The notes beneath the pieces are model-generated. The model ran no database searches. It saw nothing but the letters and a program-made list of their open reading frames with translations, and was not told the DNA's origin. The position numbers were made by a program, and so were the translations under genes. From Streptomyces coeruleorubidus (lineage in GTDB: Bacteria > Actinomycetota > Actinomycetes > Streptomycetales > Streptomycetaceae), in contig NZ_CP118527.1 of NCBI RefSeq assembly GCF_028885415.1, forward strand, positions 2,480,001 through 2,544,000: a stretch of DNA of 64,000 bases. The letters are read 5' to 3'. Position 1 is the first letter of the stretch. Each line of letters opens with the position of its first letter. Shown here in pieces: positions 17,829 through 30,285 of this stretch.

Positions 17829-18716
17829 GTGGCGAACGACGGGCCGGTCGAGCACGGCTACCCGCATCTGGAGACGGTGCGGGCCGCCATCACGGCGCTG
17901 TACAAGCGACTGTCGTACGACACGATCCAGACGTTCGCGACCAGCGTGGTCCCCGCCGACGTGGCGTTCTGCGACACCGACGACCTGTATCTGGGGGCGC
18001 AGCGGGTGGCGCACGAGCTGGTGCGGCACTACCGGCTGCCGGACGCCCGGCTGATCGTGAGCTTCCGGGAGATGCGGCACGCGGCGAACGTCGAGCTCGC
18101 TGCCGGGCCCGAGTACTTCGTGGAGCTGAACGACCGGTTCCGTACACATCGGCGGGACATCGGGGCGGCCCTGGCGCACGAGGTGATGCATGTGTACCTG
18201 CACCGCCTCGACCTGTCCTTCCCGGGCGTGAGGGACAACGAGATCCTGACGGACACGGCGGCGACGTATCTGGGCGCGGGCTGGCTGCTGCTGGACGCGT
18301 ACCGGGAGGACCGGGCGTCGTCCCAGAAGCTGGGGTATCTCACGCCGGAGGAGTTCGGGTACGTGCTGGCCAAGCGGGCGCTGGTCTTCGGGGAGGACCC
18401 GTCGGTGTGGTTCACCAGTCCGCAGGCGTACACGGCGTACGTGAAGGGGATGGAGCTGGCCCGTCGCGATGAGCAGCAGCCGCCGTTGACCGCGGCGGGG
18501 TGGTCGGGGCGGCGGCGGTACGCGCGCGATCGGCGGCATGCGCCGGCCGGGCCGCCGCAGCCGGGTGTGCGGTACTCGTTCACTCCGGACGGGGGTGGGC
18601 GGTTGCGGGTGTCGTTTCCCTGCCCGACCTGTCATCAGCGGATCAGGGTGCCGGTGCGGGGGCGGGTTCGGGCGCGGTGTGCGTTGTGCCGGAGCGTGTT
18701 GGAGTGCGACACGTAA
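17829..18716 (+). CDS. Uncharacterised HExxH protein with C-terminal zinc ribbon
   Basis: 295 aa. The middle carries HEVMHVYLHRLDL (HExxH at about residue 120) followed by DNEILTDTAATYLGAGW, where an Asp or Glu could supply a third zinc ligand, so a gluzincin/minigluzincin-like metalloprotease fold is plausible. The C terminus has two Cys pairs, CPTC and CALC about 20 residues apart, a rubredoxin-type zinc ribbon. No signal peptide is present. The GTG start is preceded by a GGGGGTGAGG purine tract. I do not recognise a characterised family. Confidence 0.75.
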   Translation: MANDGPVEHGYPHLETVRAAITALYKRLSYDTIQTFATSVVPADVAFCDTDDLYLGAQRVAHELVRHYRLPDARLIVSFREMRHAANVELAAGPEYFVELNDRFRTHRRDIGAALAHEVMHVYLHRLDLSFPGVRDNEILTDTAATYLGAGWLLLDAYREDRASSQKLGYLTPEEFGYVLAKRALVFGEDPSVWFTSPQAYTAYVKGMELARRDEQQPPLTAAGWSGRRRYARDRRHAPAGPPQPGVRYSFTPDGGGRLRVSFPCPTCHQRIRVPVRGRVRARCALCRSVLECDT

Positions 18717-18769: not shown

Positions 18770-19702
18770 CTAGAACCCCTGAGCGCCGTACACCGGCCCG
18801 GGCTCGCCCGCCTCCGCCAGCAGTTTCCGAGCCGCCTCCCCCGTCTCCGCCGGAGCCCACCGCTCGCCCTTGTCCACACTCGGGCCCGGGCGCCAGCCCT
18901 CCATCACCGTGATCCGGCCGCCCTCCGCCTCGAAGACCCGGCCCGTCACCCCCGTGCTCGCGGCCGAGCCGAGCCAGACGACCAGGGGGGAGACGTTCTC
19001 CGGGGCCATCGTGTCGAAGCCCGAGTCGGGTGCCGCCATGGTGTCGGCGAAGGTGCGCTCCGTCATGCGGGTCCGGGCGGCGGGGGCGATCGCGTTGACC
19101 TGGACGCCGTAGCGGCGCAGTTCGGCCGCCGCGACCAGGGTCAGGGCGAGGATCCCGGCCTTGGCGGCGCTGTAGTTGCCCTGGCCGACCGAGCCCAGCA
19201 GGCCCGCGCCGCTGCTGGTGTTGACGATCCGCGCCTCGGGCGGGCGGCCCGCCTTGGCCTCGGACCGCCAGTGTGCGGCGGCGTGCCGCAGGGGCAGGAA
19301 GTGGCCCTTGAGGTGGACGCGTACGACGGCGTCGAAGTCGTCCTCGTCGAGGTTGACCAGCATGCGGTCGCGCAGGAAGCCCGCGTTGTTGACGAGTGTG
19401 TCGAGCCTGCCGTACGTCTCCAGGGCCGTCCGGACGAGGGAGGCGGCGCCCTCGGTCGTGGCGATGTCGCCGCCGTGCGGCACCGCCTGGCCGCCCGCCG
19501 CGCGGATCTCCTCGGCGACGCGGGCGGCCGGGTTGCCGGGGCCGGGCGTCCCGCCGGCTCCGGCTGTGCCGTCGAGGCCGACGCCGAGGTCGTTGACGAC
19601 GAGCCGCGCGCCCTCGGCGGCGAACGCGAGGGCGTGGGCGCGGCCGAGCCCCCGCCCCGCGCCGGTGACGACGACGACCCGTCCGTCGCAGATTCCGCTC
19701 AT
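18770..19702 (-). CDS. Short-chain dehydrogenase/reductase of the steroid C/D-ring cluster (Rv3548c-like)
   Basis: 310 aa SDR. N-terminal NAD(P) motif VVVVTGAGRGLGRAHALAFA, structural NNAG (LVNNAGFLRD) and the catalytic Ser (NTSSGAGLLGS), Tyr and Lys (YSAAKAG). Its length and the extended C terminus (EGWRPGPSVDKGERW) resemble 17-beta-HSD4-type SDRs. By position it matches the mycobacterial KstR2-regulon gene Rv3548c; its exact substrate is not established there. AAGGAG precedes the ATG. It follows the next SDR gene by 15 bp in one operon. Confidence 0.85.
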   Translation of the reverse strand: MSGICDGRVVVVTGAGRGLGRAHALAFAAEGARLVVNDLGVGLDGTAGAGGTPGPGNPAARVAEEIRAAGGQAVPHGGDIATTEGAASLVRTALETYGRLDTLVNNAGFLRDRMLVNLDEDDFDAVVRVHLKGHFLPLRHAAAHWRSEAKAGRPPEARIVNTSSGAGLLGSVGQGNYSAAKAGILALTLVAAAELRRYGVQVNAIAPAARTRMTERTFADTMAAPDSGFDTMAPENVSPLVVWLGSAASTGVTGRVFEAEGGRITVMEGWRPGPSVDKGERWAPAETGEAARKLLAEAGEPGPVYGAQGF

Positions 19703-19717
19703 CTCAGGTCTCCTTGT

Positions 19718-20452
19718 TCACTTGTTCGCGGTCGAGGCGTCCAGGAACGCGGGGCGCTCCCCACCGCCGTGGACCAGCAGACTCGCTCCGCTGATGTAGG
19801 CGGCGGCGTCCGAGGCGAGGAAGACCGCGGCCCGGCCGACGTCGGACGGCTCGGCGAGGCGGCCGAGCGGGACGGTGCGGGCGACGGCGGCGACGCCGTC
19901 CTGGTCGCCGTAGTGGAGGTGGGACAGTTCGGTGCGGACCATGCCGACGACGAGGGTGTTGACCCGGATGTCGGGCGCCCACTCCACGGCCATCGAGCGG
20001 GCGAGGTTCTCCAGGCCCGCCTTGGCGGCGCCGTAGGCGGCGGTGCCCGGTGAGGGGCGGCCTCCGCTGACGCTGCCGATCATGACGATCGAGCCCCTGG
20101 CCCGCCGCAGGTGCTCGTACGCGGCGAGGGACATGGTCAGCGGAGCCACGAGGTTGAGCTCCACCACGCGCGCGTGCCGGTCGGCGCCGGCGTGGGTGAG
20201 CGGGCGGTGGGGGCTGCCGCCCGCGTTGTTGACGAGGACGTCCAGCCGGGGCAGCTCGCCGCACAGGCGCCGGACGGCCTCGGCGTCCCGGACGTCCAGC
20301 GGCGCGAACTCCGTTCCGGGCACCGGGACTTCCGGCGGGCGGCGGGCGCAGACCACGACCTCGGCACCCGCCCGTACGAAGGCACGCGCGATACCGGCAC
20401 CGACGCCCCGGGTCCCGCCCGTGACGACGGCGACCTTCCCGTCCAGCTCCAT
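19718..20452 (-). CDS. Short-chain dehydrogenase/reductase of the steroid C/D-ring cluster (Rv3549c-like)
   Basis: 244 aa SDR. Cofactor motif VVTGGTRGVGAGIARAFV, NNAG in LVNNAGGSPHRP, catalytic Ser in IGSVSGGRPSPGT and YGAAKAG for Tyr/Lys, then the FabG-like LASDAAAYISGASLLVHGG end. First gene of a leftward two-SDR operon, divergent from echA20 with a shared operator-like palindrome between them. Matches the place and length of Rv3549c in the M. tuberculosis KstR2 regulon. Confidence 0.85.
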   Translation of the reverse strand: MELDGKVAVVTGGTRGVGAGIARAFVRAGAEVVVCARRPPEVPVPGTEFAPLDVRDAEAVRRLCGELPRLDVLVNNAGGSPHRPLTHAGADRHARVVELNLVAPLTMSLAAYEHLRRARGSIVMIGSVSGGRPSPGTAAYGAAKAGLENLARSMAVEWAPDIRVNTLVVGMVRTELSHLHYGDQDGVAAVARTVPLGRLAEPSDVGRAAVFLASDAAAYISGASLLVHGGGERPAFLDASTANK

Positions 20453-20458
20453 TCGCTG

Positions 20459-20495
20459 CTACCTTCCACCTAACAAACGTTTGGTGGAAAGGTAG
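20459..20495. promoter_or_regulatory. KstR2-like operator in the SDR/echA20 divergent promoter
   Basis: The core TAACAAACGTTTGGTG (20471-20486) matches the KstR2 palindrome AnCAAGnnCTTGnT at most informative positions. It sits inside a longer imperfect dyad running from CTACCTT to AAGGTAG. The dyad fills most of the 54-bp gap between the two divergent start codons and covers the leftward gene's GGAAGG ribosome site. Confidence 0.75.
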
Positions 20496-20506
20496 CTGAT
20501 GCGGCC

Positions 20507-21250
20507 ATGGGTGTCTCCACCTCGTGCGTGGAAAAGGGCATAGCCGTCGTCACGGCCGACTTCCCGCCGGTGAACGCCCTGCCGGTGGCCGGCTGGTTCG
20601 CGCTGGCCGACGCGGTGCGCGCGGCCGGGCGCGACCCGGCGGTCCGGTGCGTGGTGCTGGCGGCCGAGGGGCGCGGGTTCAACGCGGGCGTGGACATCAA
20701 GGAGATACAGAAGGACGGCAACAGTGCGCTGATCGGCGCCAACCACGCCTGCGCGGAGGCCTTCGCCGCGGTGTACGACTGCGCGGTGCCGGTCGTGGCG
20801 GCGGTGCACGGCTTCTGCCTGGGCGGCGGCATCGGGCTGGTGGGCAACGCGGACGTGATCGTGGCGAGCGAGGACGCCGTCTTCGGCCTGCCCGAGCTGG
20901 ACCGTGGCGCACTGGGCGCGGCCACCCATCTGGCCCGGCTGGTCCCGCAGCACCTGATGCGCGCCCTGTACTACACCTCGCGCACGGCGACCGCGGCCGA
21001 GCTGCACGCGCACGGCTCGGTGTGGCGGGTGGTGCCGCCCGGGGAACTGCGAGCCGCCGCGCTGACGCTGGCCCGCGAGATCGCCGCCAAGGACGGGCAG
21101 CTGCTGCGCCTGGCCAAGGCCGCCCTCAACGGCATCGATCCGGTCGACGTGCGCCGCAGCTACCGCTTCGAGCAGGGCTTCACCTTCGAGGCGGGCCTCG
21201 GTGGGGTGGCCGACCGGGTGCGCGCGGGCTTCGGGAAGGAGGGCGCGTAG
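20507..21250 (+). CDS. echA20: Enoyl-CoA hydratase/isomerase family ring hydrolase, EchA20-like
   Basis: 247 aa crotonase, the same length as EchA20. The crotonase oxyanion-hole region is AEGRGFNAGVDIKEIQ and the second motif is VHGFCLGGGIGLVGNADVIVAS. EchA20 hydrolytically opens the steroid D ring in the bicyclic CoA thioester derived from HIP. It is the first gene of a rightward operon, followed immediately (TAG then GTG, no gap) by ipdA. The family call depends mainly on gene order, since crotonases are diverse. Confidence 0.85.
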   Translation: MGVSTSCVEKGIAVVTADFPPVNALPVAGWFALADAVRAAGRDPAVRCVVLAAEGRGFNAGVDIKEIQKDGNSALIGANHACAEAFAAVYDCAVPVVAAVHGFCLGGGIGLVGNADVIVASEDAVFGLPELDRGALGAATHLARLVPQHLMRALYYTSRTATAAELHAHGSVWRVVPPGELRAAALTLAREIAAKDGQLLRLAKAALNGIDPVDVRRSYRFEQGFTFEAGLGGVADRVRAGFGKEGA

Positions 21251-22087
21251 GTGAGTGACAAGACGATGACGGCCGACGAGGTCGTGTCCCGCCTGTCCAG
21301 CGGCATGACCCTCGGCATCGGCGGCTGGGGCTCGCGCCGCAAGCCGATGGCCCTGGTGAGAGCACTGCTCCGGTCCCGGATCACCGATCTCACGGTCGTC
21401 TCCTACGGCGGCCCGGACGTGGGCATGCTGGCCGCCGCCGGGCGGATCCGGAAACTGGTCACGGCCTTCGTCACCCTCGACTCGATCCCCCTGGAGCCGC
21501 ACTACCGCGCGGCCCGCGAGCGTGCTGCCTTCGCACTGACGGAGATCGACGAGGCGATGTTCATGTGGGGCCTGCACGCGGCGGCGAACCGGCTGCCGTT
21601 CCTGCCGGTGCGGGCCGGTATCGGCTCGGACGTGATGCGGGTCAACCCCGGTTTGCGGACGGTCACTTCACCGTACGGGGATGGGGAGACGTTCGTGGCG
21701 ATGCCCGCCCTGCGGCTCGACGCGGCCCTGGTGCACATGAACCGCGCCGACCGGCTGGGCAACGGGCAGTACCTGGGCCCGGACCCGTACTTCGACGACC
21801 TGTTCTGCGAGGCGGCGGACACGGCGTACGTCAGCTGCGAACGGATCGTCGACACGGCCGAGCTGACGAAGGCGGCACCGCCGCAGACCCTGCTGGTCAA
21901 GCGGCACACGGTGACCGGCGTCGTGGAGGCCCCGAACGGGGCGCACTTCACGTCCTGCGCGCCCGACTACGGCCGGGACGAGGCCTTCCAGAAGACGTAC
22001 GCGACGACCCCTTGGCCCGAGTTCGCGGCCCGGTTCCTCGCCGGGGACGAGCAGGCGTACCGGTCGGCCGTCGGGGAGGGGACATGA
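21251..22087 (+). CDS. ipdA: Steroid ring C hydrolase subunit IpdA (CoA-transferase-like)
   Basis: 278 aa, class I CoA-transferase alpha-subunit fold (DEVVSRLSSGMTLGIGGWGSRRKPMALVRALL). In mycobacteria and rhodococci IpdA with IpdB forms a hydrolase, not a transferase, that opens the last steroid ring (COCHEA-CoA). GTG start directly abuts the echA20 stop, with GAAGGAGGG upstream. The stop overlaps the ipdB start (ATGA), as expected for subunits made in equal amounts. Confidence 0.88.
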   Translation: MSDKTMTADEVVSRLSSGMTLGIGGWGSRRKPMALVRALLRSRITDLTVVSYGGPDVGMLAAAGRIRKLVTAFVTLDSIPLEPHYRAARERAAFALTEIDEAMFMWGLHAAANRLPFLPVRAGIGSDVMRVNPGLRTVTSPYGDGETFVAMPALRLDAALVHMNRADRLGNGQYLGPDPYFDDLFCEAADTAYVSCERIVDTAELTKAAPPQTLLVKRHTVTGVVEAPNGAHFTSCAPDYGRDEAFQKTYATTPWPEFAARFLAGDEQAYRSAVGEGT

Positions 22088-22803
22088 CGGGGGCCACCCG
22101 CGCGGAGTACTGCGTGATCGCGTGCGCCGAGGCCTGGCGGGGCGACGGCGAGGTGCTCGCGAGCCCCATGGGGCTGATCCCCTCCATCGGCGCCCGGCTC
22201 GCCCGGCTCACCTTCGCGCCTGACCTGCTGCTGACCGACGGCGAGGCGCTACTGGTCCGCCCGGACGGGACGACGGAGGGCTGGCTGCCGTACCGGCAGC
22301 ATCTGGCCCTGGTGACCGGAGGCCGGCGGCACGTGATGATGGGCGCGAGCCAGATCGACCGGTTCGGCAACCAGAACATCTCGTGCATCGGCGACTGGCA
22401 GCGGCCGAGGCGGCAGCTGCTCGGGGTGCGCGGCGCGCCGGTCAACACCCTCAACAATCCGACCAGTTACTGGATCCCGAGGCACTCCCGGCGGGTCTTC
22501 GTCGAGCGGGTCGACATGGTCTGCGGAGTCGGGTACGACCATGCGGCCGGGGCGCGTCACCACCGCATCCCGCGGGTCGTCTCCGATCTGGCTGTCTTCG
22601 ACTTCGCCACACCCGACCACTCGATGCGGCTGGCCTCGCTGCACCCGGGTGTCACGGTGGAGCAGGTCAGGGAGGCGACGGGCTTCGAGCTCGCCGTCCC
22701 GGACGAGGTGCCGCCGACCCGCGAGCCGACCGCGGAGGAGCTCCGGCTGATCCGCGAGGTCGTCGACCCGGCCGGCACGCGCGCGAGGGAGGTCGCCTCG
22801 TGA
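22084..22803 (+). CDS. ipdB: Steroid ring C hydrolase subunit IpdB (CoA-transferase-like)
   Basis: 239 aa CoA-transferase beta-subunit-like protein; YCVIACAEAWRGDGEVLASPMGLIPSIGARLARL is the family N terminus, with MMGASQIDRFGNQNIS as a strong motif. The catalytic Glu of true transferases is not evident in the usual SENG motif, consistent with the IpdAB hydrolase activity. Translationally coupled to ipdA and ipdC by overlapping stop/start codons. Confidence 0.88.
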   Translation: MTGATRAEYCVIACAEAWRGDGEVLASPMGLIPSIGARLARLTFAPDLLLTDGEALLVRPDGTTEGWLPYRQHLALVTGGRRHVMMGASQIDRFGNQNISCIGDWQRPRRQLLGVRGAPVNTLNNPTSYWIPRHSRRVFVERVDMVCGVGYDHAAGARHHRIPRVVSDLAVFDFATPDHSMRLASLHPGVTVEQVREATGFELAVPDEVPPTREPTAEELRLIREVVDPAGTRAREVAS

Positions 22804-23852
22804 TGGAGACGGCGCTGACCCGGCTGACCGGTGTCCGCCATCCCCTCGTGCAGACCGGGATGGGCTGGGTGGCGGGACCGCGCCTGGTCTCCGCCACGGC
22901 GAACGCGGGCGCTCTCGGCATCCTGGCCTCCGCGACGATGACGCTCGACCGGTTGCGCGCGGCCGTCCGGGAGGTCCGGGCCCGTACCGACGCGCCGTTC
23001 GGTGTGAACCTGCGCGCCGACGCGGCGGACGCCGGCGACCGGGTGCGGATCCTGATCGAGGAGGGCGTCCGGGTCGCCTCCTTCGCCCTGGCCCCCTCGC
23101 GGGAGCTGATCGGCGAGCTCAAGGAGGCCGGTGTGGTCGTCATGCCGACCGTGGGGGCGCGGCGGCACGCCGAGAAGGTCGCCGCGTGGGGCGCGGACGC
23201 GGTGGTCGTGCAGGGCGCGGAGGGTGGCGGGCACACCGGCGAGGTGGCCACGACGGTCCTGCTGCCGCAGGTGGTCGACGCCGTGGACATACCGGTCGTG
23301 GCGGCGGGCGGGTTCTTCGACGGGCGGGGGCTGGTCGCGGCGCTGGCCTACGGGGCTGCGGGCGTCGCCATGGGCACGCGGTTCCTGCTGACGTCGGACT
23401 CGACCGTGCCGGAGGCGGTGAAGGCGCGGTATCTGGCGGCGACGGTGCGGGACGTGACGGTCACCAGGGCGGTGGACGGGCTGCCGCACCGCATGCTGCG
23501 GACGGATCTGGTGGACGCGCTGGAGAACTCGGGCCGTGTGAAAGCCCTGTTCCATGCGACGCGCAGGGCGTCGCGCTTCCGGCGGCTCTCCGGCCTCACC
23601 TGGCGTGGCATGGTCCGCGACGGGCTCGCCCTGCGGCACGGCAAGGACCTGACCTGGAGCCAGGTCCTGCTCGCCGCGAACATCCCGATGCTGCTCAAGG
23701 CGTCCATGGTGGACGGTCGTACGGACCTGGGCGTGATGGCGTCCGGGCAGGTCGCCGGAGTGATCGACGACCTGCCCTCGTGCGCGGAGCTGGTGGAGCG
23801 GATCATGGCGGAGGCCGAGGAGACCCGTCGGCGTCTCACAGCCTCTCGATGA
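22803..23852 (+). CDS. ipdC: Nitronate monooxygenase-fold flavoprotein IpdC
   Basis: 349 aa TIM-barrel of the 2-nitropropane dioxygenase family: TGVRHPLVQTGMGWVAGPRLVSA, the FMN-phosphate region QGAEGGGHTGEV and VVAAGGFFDGRGLVAALAYGAAGVAMGTRF. In the HIP pathway IpdC is a flavin-dependent reductase acting on the bicyclic CoA thioester before ring opening. ATG overlaps the ipdB TGA; an in-frame GTG one codon earlier is an alternative. Its 3' end overlaps the convergent fadA6 stop by 17 bp. Confidence 0.87.
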   Translation: METALTRLTGVRHPLVQTGMGWVAGPRLVSATANAGALGILASATMTLDRLRAAVREVRARTDAPFGVNLRADAADAGDRVRILIEEGVRVASFALAPSRELIGELKEAGVVVMPTVGARRHAEKVAAWGADAVVVQGAEGGGHTGEVATTVLLPQVVDAVDIPVVAAGGFFDGRGLVAALAYGAAGVAMGTRFLLTSDSTVPEAVKARYLAATVRDVTVTRAVDGLPHRMLRTDLVDALENSGRVKALFHATRRASRFRRLSGLTWRGMVRDGLALRHGKDLTWSQVLLAANIPMLLKASMVDGRTDLGVMASGQVAGVIDDLPSCAELVERIMAEAEETRRRLTASR

Positions 23853-24993
23853 TCGTCACATTGGCCTGTCCGCCGCCCTCGCACATGGTCTGCAGGCCGA
23901 ACCGGCCGCCGGTGCGCTCCAGTTCGTGCAGCAGGGTCGTCATCAGCTTCACGCCGGTCGCGCCGAGCGGGTGGCCCAGGGCGATGGCACCGCCGTTGAC
24001 GTTGACCTTCTCCGGGTCCGCACCCGTCTCCTTCAGCCAGGCCAGGACGACCGGGGCGAAGGCCTCGTTGATCTCCACGAGGTCGATGTCGCCGATGGTC
24101 ATGCCGGTCTTCTTCAGGGCGTGGGCGGTGGCCGGGATGGGGGCGGTGAGCATGCGGATCGGGTCCTCGCCGCGCACCGAGAGGTGGTGCACGCGCGCGC
24201 GGGGGGTGAGCCCGTGTTCGCGCACGGCCCGCTCGGAGGCCAGCAGCATCGCCGCCGCCCCGTCGGAGACCTGCGAGGAGCAGGCGGCGGTGATCGTGCC
24301 GCCGTCGACGACCGGCTTCAGTCCGGCCATCTTCTCCAGTGAGGTGTCCCGGCGCGGGCCCTCGTCGGCGGTGACGTCCCCGTACGGCACGGTCTCGCGG
24401 TCGAAGCGGCCCTCGTCGATCGCCCGCACCGCCCGCTGATGGGACCGCAGGGCGAACTCCTCCTGGTCCTGCCTGCTGATCCCCCACTTCGCGGCGATCA
24501 TCTCGGCGCCCACGAACTGGTTCACGGGCTTGTCCCCGTACCGCGCCCGCCAGCCCGCACTGCCCGCGAACGGGCCCTCGGTCAGCCCCAGCGGCTCGGC
24601 GGCCTGCCGGGTGGCGAAGGCGATGGGGATCATCGACATGTTCTGCACACCGCCGGCGACGACCAGGTCCTGGGTGCCGGACAGCACGGCCTGCGCCGCG
24701 AAGTGCACGGCCTGCTGCGAGGAACCGCACTGCCGGTCGACGGTCACGCCCGGCACCTCCTCGGGCAGCCCGGCCGCCAGCCAGCAGGTCCGCGCGATGT
24801 CCCCGGCCTGCGGCCCCACGGCGTCCAGACAGCCGAGCACGACGTCCTCGACGGCGGCGGGGTCGACGCCCGAGCGGCTCATCAGCTCCTTCAGCACATG
24901 CGCGCCGAGGTCGGCCGGATGGACCGCGCTCAGTCCTCCCCCGCGCCGCCCGACGGGCGTGCGGACCGCTTCGACGATGTAGGCCTCGGCCAT
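23836..24993 (-). CDS. fadA6: Acetyl-CoA acetyltransferase/thiolase FadA6-like
   Basis: 385 aa, within one residue of mycobacterial FadA6. Thiolase marks: nucleophilic Cys in VDRQCGSSQQAVHFAAQAV, the His of NGGAIALGHPLGATG and the second Cys in MCEGGGQANVTII. It performs a thiolytic cleavage late in steroid C/D-ring breakdown. MAEAYIVEAVRTP was taken as the start since it is the canonical thiolase N terminus. Third gene of the leftward SDR-kstR2-fadA6 operon. Confidence 0.9.
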   Translation of the reverse strand: MAEAYIVEAVRTPVGRRGGGLSAVHPADLGAHVLKELMSRSGVDPAAVEDVVLGCLDAVGPQAGDIARTCWLAAGLPEEVPGVTVDRQCGSSQQAVHFAAQAVLSGTQDLVVAGGVQNMSMIPIAFATRQAAEPLGLTEGPFAGSAGWRARYGDKPVNQFVGAEMIAAKWGISRQDQEEFALRSHQRAVRAIDEGRFDRETVPYGDVTADEGPRRDTSLEKMAGLKPVVDGGTITAACSSQVSDGAAAMLLASERAVREHGLTPRARVHHLSVRGEDPIRMLTAPIPATAHALKKTGMTIGDIDLVEINEAFAPVVLAWLKETGADPEKVNVNGGAIALGHPLGATGVKLMTTLLHELERTGGRFGLQTMCEGGGQANVTIIERL

Positions 24994-25016
24994 GGCAACT
25001 CCCTCACACATAAGGG

Positions 25017-25664
25017 CTATTCGCGTACGGCGATCCCGTCCAGCACCATCGACAGGTACTGCCGGGCGATCTCGTCCGGGCTGTGCCCGCCGCCCGGCCG
25101 GTACCAGGACGCGGCCACCCACACCGTGTCGCGCACGAACCGGTAGGTGAGCCGGACGTCGAGGTCGGCCCGGAAGGCCCGCTCGGCGACGCCGCGCTCC
25201 AGCGTGGACAGCCACGCCTTCTCGAATCTGCGCTGCGACTCGGCGAGGAACGCGAACCGCTCCTGCGCCACGAGCTGCTTGCTCTCCTTCTGGTAGATCG
25301 CGACGGCCGCGCGATGCCGGTCGATCTCCCGGAACGACTCGGTGACCAGGGCCTGAAGCGTCTCGCGCGGGCCGAGTCCGGCACCCAGCACGGCGTCGTA
25401 GCCGTCCCAGAGCTCGTCGAGGAAGGTGCGCAGGATCTCCTCCAGCATCGACTCCTTGGAGTCGAAGTGGTAGTAGAGGCTGCCCGCGAGCATCCCCGCG
25501 TGGTCCGCGATCTTGCGGACGGTGGTGGCGTTGTAGCCCTGCTCGGCGAAGACCTCGGCGGCGGTGCCGAGGAGTTCGCTGCGGCGGTCAGGAGCGGCGG
25601 CGGCCGCGGCGGGCTCTGCGGCGGTCACCTGGGGTTTCTTCTTCGTAGGAGGCACGGGTCCCAT
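25017..25664 (-). CDS. kstR2: TetR family regulator KstR2-like
   Basis: 215 aa. After a 26-residue Ala/Pro-rich lead (longer than mycobacterial KstR2 of about 200 aa) comes a TetR helix-turn-helix: RRSELLGTAAEVFAEQGYNATTVRKIADHAGM and LAGSLYYHFDSKESM. The C-terminal ligand domain ends YLSMVLDGIAV. KstR2 represses HIP-pathway genes and is released by HIP-CoA. It lies between the SDR ipdF-like gene and fadA6, exactly as in M. tuberculosis (Rv3556c-Rv3557c-Rv3559c). Two matching operators lie in this cluster. Confidence 0.88.
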   Translation of the reverse strand: MGPVPPTKKKPQVTAAEPAAAAAAPDRRSELLGTAAEVFAEQGYNATTVRKIADHAGMLAGSLYYHFDSKESMLEEILRTFLDELWDGYDAVLGAGLGPRETLQALVTESFREIDRHRAAVAIYQKESKQLVAQERFAFLAESQRRFEKAWLSTLERGVAERAFRADLDVRLTYRFVRDTVWVAASWYRPGGGHSPDEIARQYLSMVLDGIAVRE

Positions 25665-25671
25665 TGTCGTC

Positions 25672-26457
25672 CTAGGGGTGCCTGCTGCTGACGGAGACCA
25701 CTTCTCCGGTCATGTACGAGGAGTAGCCGGAGGCCAGGAACACGATCACGTTGGCCACCTCCCAGGGCTCGGCGTACCGCCCGTAGGCCTCGCGGGCGGT
25801 CAGCTCGGCGAGCAGCTCGGGCGTGGTCACCTTCACCAGGTGCGGGTGCATGGCGAGGCTGGGCGCGACGGCGTTGACGCGCACCCCGTACTCGGCCGCC
25901 TCGACGGCCGCGCACCGGGTCAGCGCCATCACGCCCGCCTTCGCGGCGGCGTAGTGGGCCTGCCCGGCCTGGGCGCGCCAGCCGGCGACGGAGGCGTTGT
26001 TGACGATCACCCCGCCGCTGCCCCGCATGTGACGGAGCGCGGCCCGCACACACCGGAACGTGCCGTTCAGCGTCACGTCCAGGACGCGGGACCACTGTTC
26101 GTCGGTCATGTCGACGAGATCCGCGGTGCCGCCGAGACCGGCGTTGTTGACCACGACGTCCAGGCGCCCGTGTTCCCCGACGGCCGTGTCGAAGAGGGCG
26201 CGCACCTGCGTCTCGTCGGTGACGTCGCAGGGCACCGCGGCGACCGACGCCGCGCCGAACTCGACTGCCAGCTCCGCCTCGTGCTCCTTGAGCCGCCGCA
26301 CGTGCGCGTCGCTGATCAGGACGCGCGCGCCCTCCTCCAGGAAGCGGCGCGCGGTGGCCCCGCCGATCCCCGCGCCGGCCGCGGCGGTGATGACGGCGGT
26401 CCGCCCCTCCAGCACACCGTGCCCGGGCACGTACGACGGACTCTCGACGTCTGTCAT
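25672..26457 (-). CDS. ipdF: Short-chain dehydrogenase IpdF-like
   Basis: 261 aa SDR, one residue shorter than Rv3559c. Cofactor region RTAVITAAAGAGIGGATARRFLEEG, NNAG in VVNNAGLGGTAD, catalytic Ser in NNASVAGWRAQAG and YAAAKAG. IpdF oxidises the 5-hydroxyl of 5-OH-HIP-CoA. It leads a leftward operon with kstR2 (7-bp gap) and fadA6. A KstR2-like operator lies between its ATG and the divergent fadE gene. Confidence 0.86.
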   Translation of the reverse strand: MTDVESPSYVPGHGVLEGRTAVITAAAGAGIGGATARRFLEEGARVLISDAHVRRLKEHEAELAVEFGAASVAAVPCDVTDETQVRALFDTAVGEHGRLDVVVNNAGLGGTADLVDMTDEQWSRVLDVTLNGTFRCVRAALRHMRGSGGVIVNNASVAGWRAQAGQAHYAAAKAGVMALTRCAAVEAAEYGVRVNAVAPSLAMHPHLVKVTTPELLAELTAREAYGRYAEPWEVANVIVFLASGYSSYMTGEVVSVSSRHP

Positions 26458-26468
26458 GGCCTCACGCT

Positions 26469-26492
26469 AACCTACCAAACACTTGTTAGGGA
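26469..26492. promoter_or_regulatory. KstR2-like operator in the ipdF/fadE divergent promoter
   Basis: On the minus strand the core reads TAACAAGTGTTTGGTA, agreeing with AnCAAGnnCTTGnT in both half-sites except one position. The surrounding sequence forms a CCTAACAAG.../...TTGGTAGG dyad. It lies 12 bp from the ipdF start and 13 bp from the fadE start, overlapping both promoter regions, and is very similar to the site at 20471-20486. Confidence 0.78.
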
Positions 26493-26504
26493 AGGAGGGC
26501 GGTC

Positions 26505-27644
26505 GTGGATCTCGCGTTCTCGCCGGCGGACGAGGACTTCCGCACCGAGGTGCGTCAGTGGCTGCACGCGCGTGTGCCGTGCGAGCCGTTGCCCTCCCTG
26601 GAGACGGCGGAGGGCTTCGCCGCCCACCGCGCCTGGGAGGCGGAGCTGGCCGCGGACCGCTGGTCGGTGGTCGACTGGCCGGCGGCGTACGGCGGGCGGG
26701 ACGCGGGGCTCCTGCGGTGGCTGGTCTTCGAGGAGGAGTACTGGGCGGCGGGCGCCCCGGGGCGCGTCGGGCAGAACGGCATCCATCTGCTCGCCCCGAC
26801 CCTCTTCGCCCACGGCACCGAGGAGCAGCGGGCCCGGGTGCTGCCCCCGATGGCCTGCGGAGAGGTGATCTGGGCGCAGGCCTGGTCGGAGCCCGAGGCC
26901 GGTTCGGACCTGGCGTCCCTGCGGGCGAGGGCCGTGCGCACGGACGGCGGCTGGCGCTTGAGCGGCCAGAAGACCTGGTCCTCGCGTGCCGCGTTCGCCG
27001 ACCGCGCGTTCGGCCTGTTCCGCAGTGATCCGGACGCGGCGAAGGCCCACCAGGGCCTGACGTACCTCATGTTCGACCTGCGCGCACCCGGCGTCACGGT
27101 CCGTCCGATCGCCCGGCTCGACGGCAAGCCGGCGTTCGCGGAGCTGTTCCTGGACGAGGTCTTCGTGCCCGACGAGGACGTGATCGGCGAACCCGGCCAG
27201 GGCTGGCGGATCGCGATGGCGACGGCGGGCAACGAACGCGGGCTGATGCTCCGCTCCCCGGGCCGTTTCCTCGCCGCCGCGCGGCGGCTGGAGGAGCTGT
27301 GGCGGGAGCGGGGCGGTCCGGTGTCCGAGCGCGACCGGGTGGCCGACGCCCTGATCGGCGCCCGCGCCTACCAGCTCTTCACGTACGCGGCCGCCTCCCG
27401 CTTCCTGGACGGCGAGGCCCTCGGCCCGGAGTCGAGTCTGAACAAGGTCTTCTGGTCCGAACTCGACCTCGCGCTGCACGAGACGGCCCTCGACCTCCTC
27501 GGCCCGCAGGGCGAGCAGGCGGACACCGACTGGGCGGAGCGGTACGTCTTCGCGCTCGCCGGCCCGATCTACGCGGGCACGAACGAGATCCAGCGCGACA
27601 TCATCGCCGAGCGCCTGCTCGGCCTGCCGAAGGGACGCCGCTGA
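26505..27644 (+). CDS. Acyl-CoA dehydrogenase of the HIP pathway (FadE30/FadE31-like)
   Basis: 379 aa acyl-CoA dehydrogenase. The FAD/substrate loop is WAQAWSEPEAGSDLASLRA, followed by LSGQKTWSSRAAF, NERGLMLRSPGRFL and the C-terminal YAGTNEIQRDIIAERLLGLP. GTG start with GAAGGAGG 8 nt upstream. Adjacent to ipdF it would be FadE30; but it is followed by a short FadE with an ATGA overlap, like the alpha/beta pairs FadE31-FadE32 in mycobacteria, so the exact orthologue is undecided. Confidence 0.87.
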   Translation: MDLAFSPADEDFRTEVRQWLHARVPCEPLPSLETAEGFAAHRAWEAELAADRWSVVDWPAAYGGRDAGLLRWLVFEEEYWAAGAPGRVGQNGIHLLAPTLFAHGTEEQRARVLPPMACGEVIWAQAWSEPEAGSDLASLRARAVRTDGGWRLSGQKTWSSRAAFADRAFGLFRSDPDAAKAHQGLTYLMFDLRAPGVTVRPIARLDGKPAFAELFLDEVFVPDEDVIGEPGQGWRIAMATAGNERGLMLRSPGRFLAAARRLEELWRERGGPVSERDRVADALIGARAYQLFTYAAASRFLDGEALGPESSLNKVFWSELDLALHETALDLLGPQGEQADTDWAERYVFALAGPIYAGTNEIQRDIIAERLLGLPKGRR

Positions 27645-28607
27645 TGCGTTTCCTCCTCGACGCCGAGCAACGCGCCTTCGCCGCCTCGCTGGACGCACTG
27701 CTGACGGCGGCGGGGACACCGGCGGTGGTGCGGGACTGGAGCCGGGGCGATCATGCGAGCGGGCGGGCGCTGTGGTCCCGTGTCGCGGAGGCGGGCGTGT
27801 TCGCGCTGGCGGTTCCGGAGACGTACGAAGGCGGACTGGGGCCGCTTCCGGTCGAACTGGCCGTCGCCTTCGTGGAGCTGGGCCGCCATGCGGTGCCGGG
27901 CCCGCTGGTCGAGACGGTGACGGCGGCGGTGCTCCTCACGGGGGCCGACCCGGGCATCGCCAAGCGGCTGCTGCCGGTGCTGGCGTCCGGGGAGACGATG
28001 GCGACGGTGGCACCCGAGGGCGCATACGCCCTGGACGGCGACGCGGCCACCCTCCGGCTCTCCTGGGAGCCCAGCGGCATCCGCCTCTCCCCCGGCCACG
28101 GCCCCGCCCGCCCCTGCCTCGACCCCGCCCGTCGCCTCACCCCCCGCCCCCGGCGGCGAACTCCTCGACGCCCCCACCGGACAGGCCCTCACCTGGGCCC
28201 GTCTCGCCACCGCCGCCCAAGCTCTCGGGGTGGGCCTCGCACTCCTCGACAGAACCGTCGGATACGTCAGGCAACGCACCCAGTTCGGCGTCCCCGTCGG
28301 GTCGTTCCAGGCGGTCAAGCACCGGCTGGCCGACGCGAAGATCGCCCTGGAGTTCGCGCGCCCGCTGGTCTTCGGTGCCGCGCTGACCATGCGGCCGGCC
28401 GATGCCGCCGCCGCCAAGGCCGCCGCGTGCGAGGCGGCGTACTCCACCGCCCGCACCGCGCTGCAACTGCACGGCGCCATCGGCTACACGGCGGAGTACG
28501 ACCTGTCGCTGTGGCTGACCAAGGCCCGGGCCCTGCGCACCGCCTGGGGCGATCCCCACGAGTGCCGGGCCCTGGTCGTCAGTGCGGCTGGTGATCGCCG
28601 CTGGTGA
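27644..28607 (+). pseudogene. Short acyl-CoA dehydrogenase (FadE32/FadE33-like) with a frameshift
   Basis: The first part (MRFLLDAEQRAFAASLDALL to about 28138) and the last part (GLALLDRTVGYVRQRTQFGVPVGSFQAVKHRLADAK to YTAEYDLSLWLTKARAL) are both clear acyl-CoA dehydrogenase sequence but in different frames. Removing one C from the C6 run at 28140-28145 restores a continuous frame (TPAPGGELLDAPTGQALTW), giving about 320 aa, the size of FadE32/FadE33. These short proteins pair with a full-length FadE. Either a genuine inactivating mutation or a sequencing error. The end overlaps the convergent qcrB stop by 29 bp. Confidence 0.8.
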
Positions 28608-30285
28608 TCTCCCGGAACTCCTCCACCGTCGGCTTCTCGATCCGCGCGTCGGGCCCGAACATCGCCTTCGCCAGCCGCGCACGCAGCCGCTCGGACCGCC
28701 TGACCTTGCGGCGTACGCCCCCCGCGTCGACCACGGGCCCCATCTCGTAGGGCGGGTTCTGCTCGTGCTGGGTGAGGGTGAACAGCTCCGCCTGCGACAG
28801 GGGCTCGTGCACCTCGATGTACTCGCCGTTCGGCAGCCGCTTGATGGTGCCGGTCTCCCTGCCGTGCAGCACCTTGGCGCGGTCGCGACGCTGGAGGCCC
28901 ATGCAGATCTTCTTCGTGACGATGAAGGCGGCGACCGGCAGCACGAAGGCGCCGATCCGCACGAACCAGGTGATCACGTTGATGGACAGATGCAGATGCG
29001 TGGCCACGATGTCGTTGCCGCCGCCGATCAGCAGCACCGCGTACAGGGTCAGCCAGGCCACGCCCAGGCCGGTGCGCACGGGCGCGTTGCGCGGCCGCTC
29101 CAGGATGTGGTGCTCGCGTTTGTCGCCGGTGATCCACGCCTCGATGAAGGGATAGGCGCCGATGGCGAGCATGACCAGCGGGAAGAGCGCGAACGGGATG
29201 AACACGCCGAGCACCAGCGTGTGGCCCCACAGGTTGATCTCCCATCCCGGCATCACCCGGATCAGGCCCTCCGAGAACCCGAGGTACCAGTCGGGCTGGG
29301 CGCCCGTGGTGACCAGGTCGGCGCGGTAGGGGCCGAAGGCCCACACGGGGTTGATCTGGGCGATCGCGCCCATGATGGTCAGGACGCCGAAGACGAGGAA
29401 GAAGAAGCCGCCCGCCTTGGCCAAGTAGACCGGCAGGAAGGGCATCCCGACGACCGACCGCTCCTTGCGCCCGGGGCCCGGGAACTGGGTGTGCTTGTGG
29501 TAGAAGACCAGGATCAGATGGGCGGTCACCAGGCCCAGCATGATCCCGGGCAGCAGCAGCACATGGACCGGGAAGAGGCGCGAGATGATGTCGTCGCCCG
29601 GGAACTCCCCGCCGAAGAGGAAGAACGCCACATACGTCCCGACGATCGGGATCGACAGGATCGCGCCGTGCGCGAAGCGCAGGCCGGTGCCGGACAGCAG
29701 GTCGTCCGGGAGGGAGTAGCCGGTCAGGCCGGTGATGATGCCGAGCATCAGCAGGGTCCAGCCGAAGACCCAATTGAGCTCGCGGGGCTTGCGGAAGGCG
29801 CCGGTGAAGAACACCCGCATCATGTGCACCATCATGCCGGTGATGAAGACCAGCGCCGCCCAGTGGTGGATCTGCCGCATCAGCAGCCCGCCGCGGATGT
29901 CGAAGCTGATGTCCAGGGTGGACTCGAACGCCCTGCTCATGAGCACGCCGTTGAGCTCCGTGTAGGACCCCTGGTAGACGACCTCCTGCATGCTCGGCTC
30001 GAAGAACAGGGTGAGGTAGACGCCGGTGAGGATCAGGACGACGAAGCTGTAGAGGGTGACCTCGCCCAGCATGAAGGACCAGTGGTCCGGGAAGACCTTG
30101 CGCATGTTGGCCTTGGCCAGCCCGTAGAGGCCGAGCCGCCCGTCCGCCCAGTCGGCGAGCTTCTCGCCCTTGCCTGCGGGAGGTCTCCTGCGAGCGGAGG
30201 TCGTCCCGTACATCCGTCGTCCGCCGTCGTCGTGCACGTGTCCTGCGCCGTCGTCATGCACCCGTCGTGCGCCGTCGTCGCCCAT
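28579..30285 (-). CDS. Second, orphan cytochrome b subunit (QcrB paralogue)
   Basis: 568 aa, actinobacterial QcrB type. Cytochrome b heme ligands lie in HHWAALVFITGMMVHMMRVFF and the paired helix VHVLLLPGIMLGLVTAHL; the Qo region includes PDWYLGFSEGLIR. The core starts GEKLADWADGRLGLYGLAKANMRKVFPDHW. No qcrC or qcrA adjoins, so this is not the main bc1 operon. The N terminus has a tandem octapeptide (DDGARRVH-DDGAGHVH-DDGGRRM). ATG at 30285 has GGAGG 9 nt upstream; ATG at 30213, after the repeat, is the alternative. Confidence 0.9.
   Translation of the reverse strand: MGDDGARRVHDDGAGHVHDDGGRRMYGTTSARRRPPAGKGEKLADWADGRLGLYGLAKANMRKVFPDHWSFMLGEVTLYSFVVLILTGVYLTLFFEPSMQEVVYQGSYTELNGVLMSRAFESTLDISFDIRGGLLMRQIHHWAALVFITGMMVHMMRVFFTGAFRKPRELNWVFGWTLLMLGIITGLTGYSLPDDLLSGTGLRFAHGAILSIPIVGTYVAFFLFGGEFPGDDIISRLFPVHVLLLPGIMLGLVTAHLILVFYHKHTQFPGPGRKERSVVGMPFLPVYLAKAGGFFFLVFGVLTIMGAIAQINPVWAFGPYRADLVTTGAQPDWYLGFSEGLIRVMPGWEINLWGHTLVLGVFIPFALFPLVMLAIGAYPFIEAWITGDKREHHILERPRNAPVRTGLGVAWLTLYAVLLIGGGNDIVATHLHLSINVITWFVRIGAFVLPVAAFIVTKKICMGLQRRDRAKVLHGRETGTIKRLPNGEYIEVHEPLSQAELFTLTQHEQNPPYEMGPVVDAGGVRRKVRRSERLRARLAKAMFGPDARIEKPTVEEFREITSGDHQPH

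Follow-up and report, generated by a model that had tools for sequence, protein, structure and literature searches.

A KstR2-type gene cluster in Streptomyces, probably the second half of the HIP pathway, with candidate entry genes at a separate chromosomal locus

Introduction

The degradation of steroid rings C and D through 3aα-H-4α(3'-propanoate)-7aβ-methylhexahydro-1,5-indanedione (HIP) is described for the KstR2 regulon of Mycobacterium tuberculosis, Mycobacterium smegmatis and Rhodococcus jostii (Rv3548c-Rv3564). In the species studied, the effector of KstR2 is HIP-CoA (PMC5380842), and the KstR2 motif, AnCAAGnnCTTGnT, is located in divergent promoters near kstR2 (PMC3068626). Here we analyse a stretch of 64,000 bases (the window; bases 2,480,001-2,544,000 in a Streptomyces genome assembled as one contig of 9.41 Mb). 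The eleven genes of a cluster at positions 18,770-28,607 follow the relative order tabulated for their counterparts in PMC5380842, and both corresponding divergent promoters contain a KstR2 palindrome. Unlike the regulon, the window cluster is without fadD3, fadE30 and fadE33 (FadE30 is IpdE1 and FadE33 is IpdE2; PMC8708139), has ipdF directly opposite fadE31 and has no separate kstR2 operator, and its operator cores read CAAA-nn-TTTG and CAAA-nn-CTTG, compared with CAAG-nn-CTTG in the regulon. We consider it probable that this cluster is the second half of the HIP pathway, repressed by KstR2, and that the entry enzymes are encoded at a separate locus of the same chromosome.

Several described systems bear on this layout. 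In Saccharopolyspora hirsuta VKM Ac-666, as in the window strain, the gene for HIP-CoA synthetase lies outside the C/D-ring cluster; unlike the window strain, this species carries A/B-ring and side-chain clusters as well as fadE30 and fadE33 (PMC8708139). The Streptomyces megaplasmids of NBC_00841 (L085) and BHT-5-2 (L082) carry clusters whose counterparts of the ten intact window genes are 69-87% identical, whose fadE32 halves are 58-63% identical and whose operators are near-identical to those in the window; both have in addition fadE30, an EchA13-like hydratase gene and fadE33, and L085 also has fadD3. A steroid pathway was reported absent from 55 of 57 Streptomyces genomes (PMC4810484), PMC5380842 cites a streptomycete that grew on HIP and accumulated MOODA (Hashimoto and Hayakawa 1977), and steroid intermediates are described as transiently extracellular, with possible cross-feeding (PMC8399759). 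Term searches of the open-licence PMC literature turned up no account of HIP clusters being widespread in Streptomyces, nor of the two-locus layout.

Gene content of the cluster

The cluster consists of the following features (window coordinates; aa, amino acids; SDR, short-chain dehydrogenase/reductase; percentages are identities to the annotated Novosphingobium pNL2 cluster).

18770..19702, minus strand: SDR, Rv3548c homologue (310 aa; NCBIfam NF005861 491 bits, cut-off 373; 55% to the counterpart)
19718..20452, minus strand: SDR, Rv3549c homologue (244 aa; NF005893 375 bits, cut-off 255)
20469..20488, no strand: predicted KstR2-type operator, SDR/echA20 divergent promoter (core AACAAACGTTTGGT; AnCAARnnYTTGnT 10/10; 2 mismatches to the 20-base pattern)
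20507..21250, plus strand: echA20, putative HIEC-CoA hydrolase, ring D opening (247 aa; NF005925 396 bits, cut-off 260; 42% to the EchA20 counterpart)
21251..22087, plus strand: ipdA, putative COCHEA-CoA hydrolase alpha subunit, ring C opening (278 aa; PDB 6co6/6co9/6con chain A, best E 1.8e-98)
22084..22803, plus strand: ipdB, putative COCHEA-CoA hydrolase beta subunit (239 aa; PDB 6co6_B, E 1.1e-86)
22803..23852, plus strand: ipdC, putative 5-OH-HIC-CoA reductase, NMO/FabK-type flavoprotein (349 aa; PF03060 300 bits; 47% to IpdC)
23836..24993, minus strand: fadA6 thiolase (~385 aa; NF005865 708 bits, cut-off 591; 63% to FadA6; start set by alignment, open reading frame searched 23836-25005)
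25017..25664, minus strand: kstR2, TetR-type repressor (215 aa; PDB 2ibd, 4w1u and 4w97, E 5e-68 to 1.2e-56)
25672..26457, minus strand: ipdF, putative 5-oxo/5-OH HIC-CoA oxidoreductase (261 aa; NF005880 445 bits, cut-off 336; 65% to IpdF)
26471..26490, no strand: predicted KstR2-type operator, ipdF/fadE31 divergent promoter (0 mismatches to the 20-base pattern, the best match genome-wide)
26505..27644, plus strand: fadE31, predicted large subunit of the proposed FadE31-FadE32 MOODA-CoA dehydrogenase (379 aa; FadE31 clade, 100/99 support)
27644..28607, plus strand: fadE32, frameshifted (Acyl-CoA_dh_N half and Acyl-CoA_dh_1 half in different frames)

Thus ipdAB, echA20, ipdC, ipdF and fadA6 all stand together, with the KstR2 repressor gene among them. 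An earlier note on this DNA had described eleven genes here in the content and local order of the KstR2 regulon. The coordinates, the order and the identity hold for ten intact genes, through PDB matches, NCBIfam cut-offs and pNL2 identities, while the eleventh, the short fadE, is frameshifted. Two KstR2 matches, 4w1u and 4w97, bear that name in the PDB, and the next PDB match reaches only 1.5e-21. The PDB names the chains of 6co6 only 'Probable CoA-transferase' alpha and beta subunit; we take 6co6 to be IpdAB and 6coj to be an IpdAB mutant. The window IpdA retains, as E101, the Glu that reads Ala in 6coj. The NCBIfam families passed by both SDRs, EchA20, FadA6 and IpdF have generic names, and we assign these five proteins because of synteny and 42-65% identity to the pNL2 cluster.

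The two fadE genes were considered as a candidate IpdE1-IpdE2 pair, and both sequence and synteny rule this out in favour of FadE31-FadE32, the pair of the late MOODA-CoA step. The long FadE is 76%, 65% and 56% identical to the FadE31 of Streptomyces, Nocardia and Novosphingobium, compared with 39-44% for FadE30 proteins; the names FadE30/31/32/33 for the Novosphingobium proteins were assigned by gene order, following the PMC5380842 table. A first acyl-CoA dehydrogenase tree, which included two distant outgroups, gave no information, as it had five open forks and two long branches; the tree used here was rebuilt without these outgroups, with 10 rows and no wider outgroup. The short fadE is FadE32 by comparison with the copies of relatives. 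Both fadE32 halves are seen in 69 of 83 compared loci, the other 14 missing one or both; they share one frame in all 69 and are stop-free between the halves in 68. The frameshift in the window may be a real mutation or a sequencing error.

KstR2-type operators

Both operators match AnCAAGnnCTTGnT in a relaxed form (R/Y at inner positions) at 10 of 10 positions; the SDR/echA20 operator departs from the strict form at 2 inner positions and the ipdF/fadE31 operator at 1. Shuffles of the operator regions never rose above 9 of 10 positions, and only these two places in the 9.41 Mb come within 2 mismatches of the 20-base pattern (three more at 3 mismatches). The two sites recur in relatives. The same SDR/echA20 intergenic region holds the operator in all 82 readable loci (67 at 10/10, 15 at 9/10), and the ipdF/fadE31 operator is present in 75/75 readable loci (74 at 10/10, one at 9/10). 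The latter equals the M. tuberculosis Rv3560c/Rv3561 probe of an electrophoretic mobility shift assay (PMC3068626) at 24 of 30 bases, and no other place in the window exceeds 16/30. In both megaplasmid clusters, the sequence of this operator sits between fadE30 and echA; the window would then show a layout in which the operator was kept and its two neighbours were lost.

Entry genes at a second locus

The earlier note called the cluster near-complete. This does not hold, as the window cluster was found to contain neither fadD3, whose product activates HIP, nor ipdE1 and ipdE2, which encode the dehydrogenase pair for HIP-CoA. The NBC_00841 megaplasmid supplied queries for FadE30, FadE33, FadD3 and its EchA13-like hydratase, which gave good matches in none of 80 stretches around the loci of relatives (the best 80 of 449; 79 named Streptomyces and one 'Actinobacteria bacterium'; some end inside the cluster), and only in the two megaplasmid loci, the fadD3 query only in its own source. 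The best match of the FadE30 query in those stretches was 44%, the level expected for FadE31. Furthermore, where both genes can be read (75 of the 80 stretches), 48-158 bases separate ipdF from the divergent fadE31; the other five are unreadable there. We conclude that the cluster is without the HIP-activating and the first side-chain-shortening enzymes, because the fadD3, fadE30 and fadE33 queries remain unmatched and ipdF adjoins fadE31.

The earlier note had pointed to the rest of the genome for fadD3, and there a likely counterpart is located, in a ~70-kb region of the same chromosome 1.77 Mb from the cluster, which also encodes IpdE1-like and IpdE2-like proteins (coordinates of chromosome G000:C1).

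4273300-4274910: FadD3 (NCBIfam FadD3 equivalog NF005801 788.8 bits, cut-off 657)
4283210-4284391: IpdE2-like protein (NF050027, the IpdE2 model, 218 bits, cut-off 450)
~4316.3-4317.4 kb: IpdE1-like protein (FadE30 clade, 98/98 support)

The FadD3 score exceeds those of two in-cluster references (672.8 and 702.7 bits), and the protein is 56% identical to the FadD3 query, compared with 36% for the next best-scoring ligase of the genome. The IpdE2-like protein is nearer to FadE33 (176-229 bits) than to FadE32 (62-94 bits). Other products of the region include an enoyl-CoA hydratase, amidohydrolases, a luciferase-type oxygenase and two lipid-transfer/thiolase proteins, of which one exceeds its cut-off. 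A further acyl-CoA dehydrogenase pair is encoded there as well, and other genes are interspersed. This further pair (4320918-4325735; L098:5919-10736) lies beside an amidohydrolase and a ligase. Compared with the Novosphingobium proteins, it shows 34% identity to FadE32 and 37% to FadE31; its large member is about equally near to FadE30, and the pair might substitute for the broken fadE32.

Distribution in Streptomyces

We then consider how the two loci are distributed. An ipdA gene is present in 277 of 392 Streptomyces genomes (E <= 1e-40; where candidates were many, only part were scored per genome). Among these, 64 have a true IpdE1, defined by E < 1e-180 (74-95% identity to the L085 FadE30; next match 64%), and 213 do not (split type). 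FadD3 of the second-locus type occurs in 259 of the 277 ipdA-positive genomes vs 3 of 115 ipdA-negative ones, the three being 78-79% complete assemblies; these counts omit ten matches weaker than 1e-200, with which they become 267/277 vs 5/115. Of the 259, 200 are split-type genomes (200/213, hence 200 of all 392), so that about half of the Streptomyces species compared seem to have this layout. A FadE30-like protein is found in 197/213 split-type vs 3/115 ipdA-negative genomes. Among 80 genomes hand-picked (40 + 40) from two random samples of 100, an IpdE2-like protein at >=60% identity is present in 39/40 ipdA-positive vs 2/40 ipdA-negative genomes (G143 and the incomplete G321), with two more ipdA-negative matches at 45-46% identity, and another acyl-CoA dehydrogenase, used as a detection control, was found in 40/40 and 37/40, with identities to the window strain that overlap between the groups. 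A shared pathway for ipdA and the unlinked fadD3, ipdE1-like and ipdE2-like genes is the best explanation, because they are gained and lost together.

A two-locus pathway and its alternatives

From these sequences we infer a pathway in which the second-locus FadD3 would convert HIP to HIP-CoA, which in turn would free KstR2 from the two operators and so switch on the eleven-gene cluster. Shortening of the side chain to 5-OH-HIC-CoA could be carried out by IpdF, the IpdE1-like/IpdE2-like pair (4316.3 and 4283.2 kb), hydratases and the Rv3548c-type SDR, whose Rhodococcus counterpart RHA1_RS22710 has been proposed as the HIP side-chain hydroxyacyl-CoA dehydrogenase (PMC5380842, PMC8399759). IpdF with IpdC, EchA20 (ring D), IpdAB (ring C) and FadA6 would then lead to MOODA-CoA, to be oxidised by FadE31-FadE32, though FadE32 is frameshifted here. 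Deletion of fadE32 in M. smegmatis causes MOODA to accumulate (PMC5380842), and a build-up of MOODA is predicted for the window strain because its fadE32 is broken. The claim of the earlier note that the cluster by itself implies HIP catabolism therefore needs amending, as the unlinked fadD3/ipdE1-like/ipdE2-like locus would be needed.

A number of observations weigh against this two-locus pathway. The last enzyme pair is incomplete in the window strain, as fadE32 is broken. A pattern search gave no KstR2 site at the second locus, which by this test lies outside the KstR2 regulon, and within the locus ~32 kb containing other genes separate the IpdE1-like gene from the IpdE2-like one. The 218 bits of the IpdE2-like protein fall short of the IpdE2 cut-off of 450; in-cluster IpdE2 references also fail it (Nocardia 296, Novosphingobium 203, Streptomyces 241 bits), and because all three do, we regard this cut-off as not discriminating here. 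Second-locus-type FadD3 is also present in 59 of the 64 strains with in-cluster IpdE1, and given this number it may have another main job. G143, which is ipdA-negative and 99% complete, has both FadE30-like and IpdE2-like proteins. Finally, the co-occurrence counts span related, non-independent species and ignore kinship, so that the Fisher value for FadD3 and ipdA is too favourable, and the near-universal control gene checks detection, not shared ancestry.

Some of these observations would fit a cluster that functions alone and starts below HIP, at an HIC-like hydrindanone carboxylate whose CoA ester enters at IpdF/IpdC, with the FadD3/IpdE1-like locus serving another purpose. The missing genes are exactly the set for the HIP propionate side chain, the 48-158-base gap between ipdF and fadE31 is too small for fadE30, and the second locus is without an operator and coexists with in-cluster IpdE1. 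Nevertheless, the cluster retains the Rv3548c-type SDR, for which a role in HIP side-chain breakdown has been proposed, FadD3, IpdE1-like and IpdE2-like proteins tightly co-occur with ipdA, and HIP-CoA is the effector of KstR2 in the species studied (PMC5380842). We therefore regard entry at the level of HIC as unlikely, although it is the best placed of the four alternatives that we weighed.

A/B-ring genes

The earlier note saw no kstD or hsa genes in the window. Beyond it, the genome does encode a KstD, and orthologues of HsaA, HsaC and KshA were not found in the genome.

5706802-5708592 (L113:16803-18593): KstD (NF005882, 3-oxosteroid 1-dehydrogenase, 913.8 bits, cut-off 788)

This protein is 54% identical to a Nocardia KstD and matches PDB 7p18 and 4c3x. 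Its N-terminal twin-arginine motif (SRRRVL leader) suggests export, and no recognised A/B-ring partners are among the open reading frames listed around it. The KshA family PF19298 had no match in the genome, a negative of unproven sensitivity, since 14 control genomes likewise gave none over the cut-off. An HsaA query that passes the HsaA model (701.7 vs 450 bits) found only 29-31% matches, and the best HsaC-like protein of the genome reached 265.6 bits (cut-off 450). This HsaC/BphC-like extradiol dioxygenase (7747953-7748873; L101) was rejected as HsaC, being below both the HsaC (265.6 bits) and the BphC (259.1 bits) cut-offs.

If the strain were a full steroid degrader, with its A/B-ring genes elsewhere in the genome, KstD would be one of them, and an HsaC-like protein at E < 1e-77 does occur in 38 of the 392 Streptomyces genomes. 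However, all 38 belong to the 64 genomes with in-cluster IpdE1 and none to the 213 of split type; weaker matches (1e-61 to 1e-74) add 22 further genomes, including the window strain and a partial 47% match in G223. Together with the unmatched KshA family, the low HsaA identities and the low HsaC score, this makes full degradation improbable. As no KshA, HsaA or HsaC orthologue was found, HIP would be taken up from outside, and the strain probably scavenges HIP-type hydrindanones made by others instead of producing them from whole steroids. The view of the earlier note that the strain meets steroids or HIP-like molecules is, for steroid-derived HIP, plausible.

If ipdA-positive strains use outside HIP, a dominant soil genus would take part in steroid turnover unseen by screens for A/B-ring markers. 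In our data ipdA marks the C/D-ring half, and its presence in 277/392 genomes contrasts with the 55/57 reported without a steroid pathway in PMC4810484. A broader notion, which we hold tentatively and think doubtful, is that in most ipdA-bearing Streptomyces the C/D-ring module and the second locus form a separate pathway for hydrindane compounds and not the tail of a steroid pathway; the substrate might be HIP shed by other steroid degraders; alternatively, a microbial metabolite or a terpenoid might feed into HIP-CoA. Were this true, Streptomyces would be widespread terminal degraders overlooked by genome screens for whole pathways.

Retention and genomic context

Improbable too, and ranked marginally below full steroid degradation, is the alternative that the cluster is a decaying, functionless remnant of a lost steroid pathway. 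The frameshift in fadE32 would agree with decay, as would the position of the operator, which has ipdF and fadE31 on either side where the megaplasmid clusters have fadE30 and echA, and so seems to have lost both neighbours. On the other hand, the other ten genes are open and 91-98% identical at the protein level to the S. coeruleorubidus copies (L001), the species that also has the closest IpdA (97%) among the matches listed (best 80 of 449). In addition, the operators are almost unchanged across the loci read, and fadE32 is open in 68 of the 69 relatives that show both halves; a sequencing error may underlie the frameshift.

Two genes outside the pathway flank the cluster.

17829..18716, plus strand: no family match (0 Pfam, 0 NCBIfam); within 4 kb of SDR2 in 62/80 relatives' loci
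28579..30285, minus strand: qcrB-type cytochrome b (PF13631, PF00033); within 5 kb of fadE31 in 39/80 relatives' loci

Recent horizontal acquisition into the strain or its near kin, one of two origins suggested by the earlier note, is highly improbable: the fuller versions on two megaplasmids indicate that these genes can travel, but ipdA is present in 277/392 species, the left, right and both flanks are close by in 62, 39 and 32 of the 80 loci, and the GC content of the cluster is inside the range of the window. Selective retention, the other origin, fits the spread of ipdA better.

Related clusters on plasmids

A half cluster (SDR, SDR, echA20, ipdA, ipdB, ipdC) adjoins a steroid thiolase and a P450 on an 86-kb Tsukamurella plasmid (L083); the stretch compared contains no kstR2, and the operator test gave no KstR2-like site. 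Just upstream of the L085 cluster, 4-hydroxy-2-oxovalerate aldolase and acetaldehyde dehydrogenase genes score over their cut-offs, as in A-ring degradation, and a hydratase-like protein there is below its cut-offs. L082 and L085 are large linear plasmids of 2.8 and 1.5 Mb.

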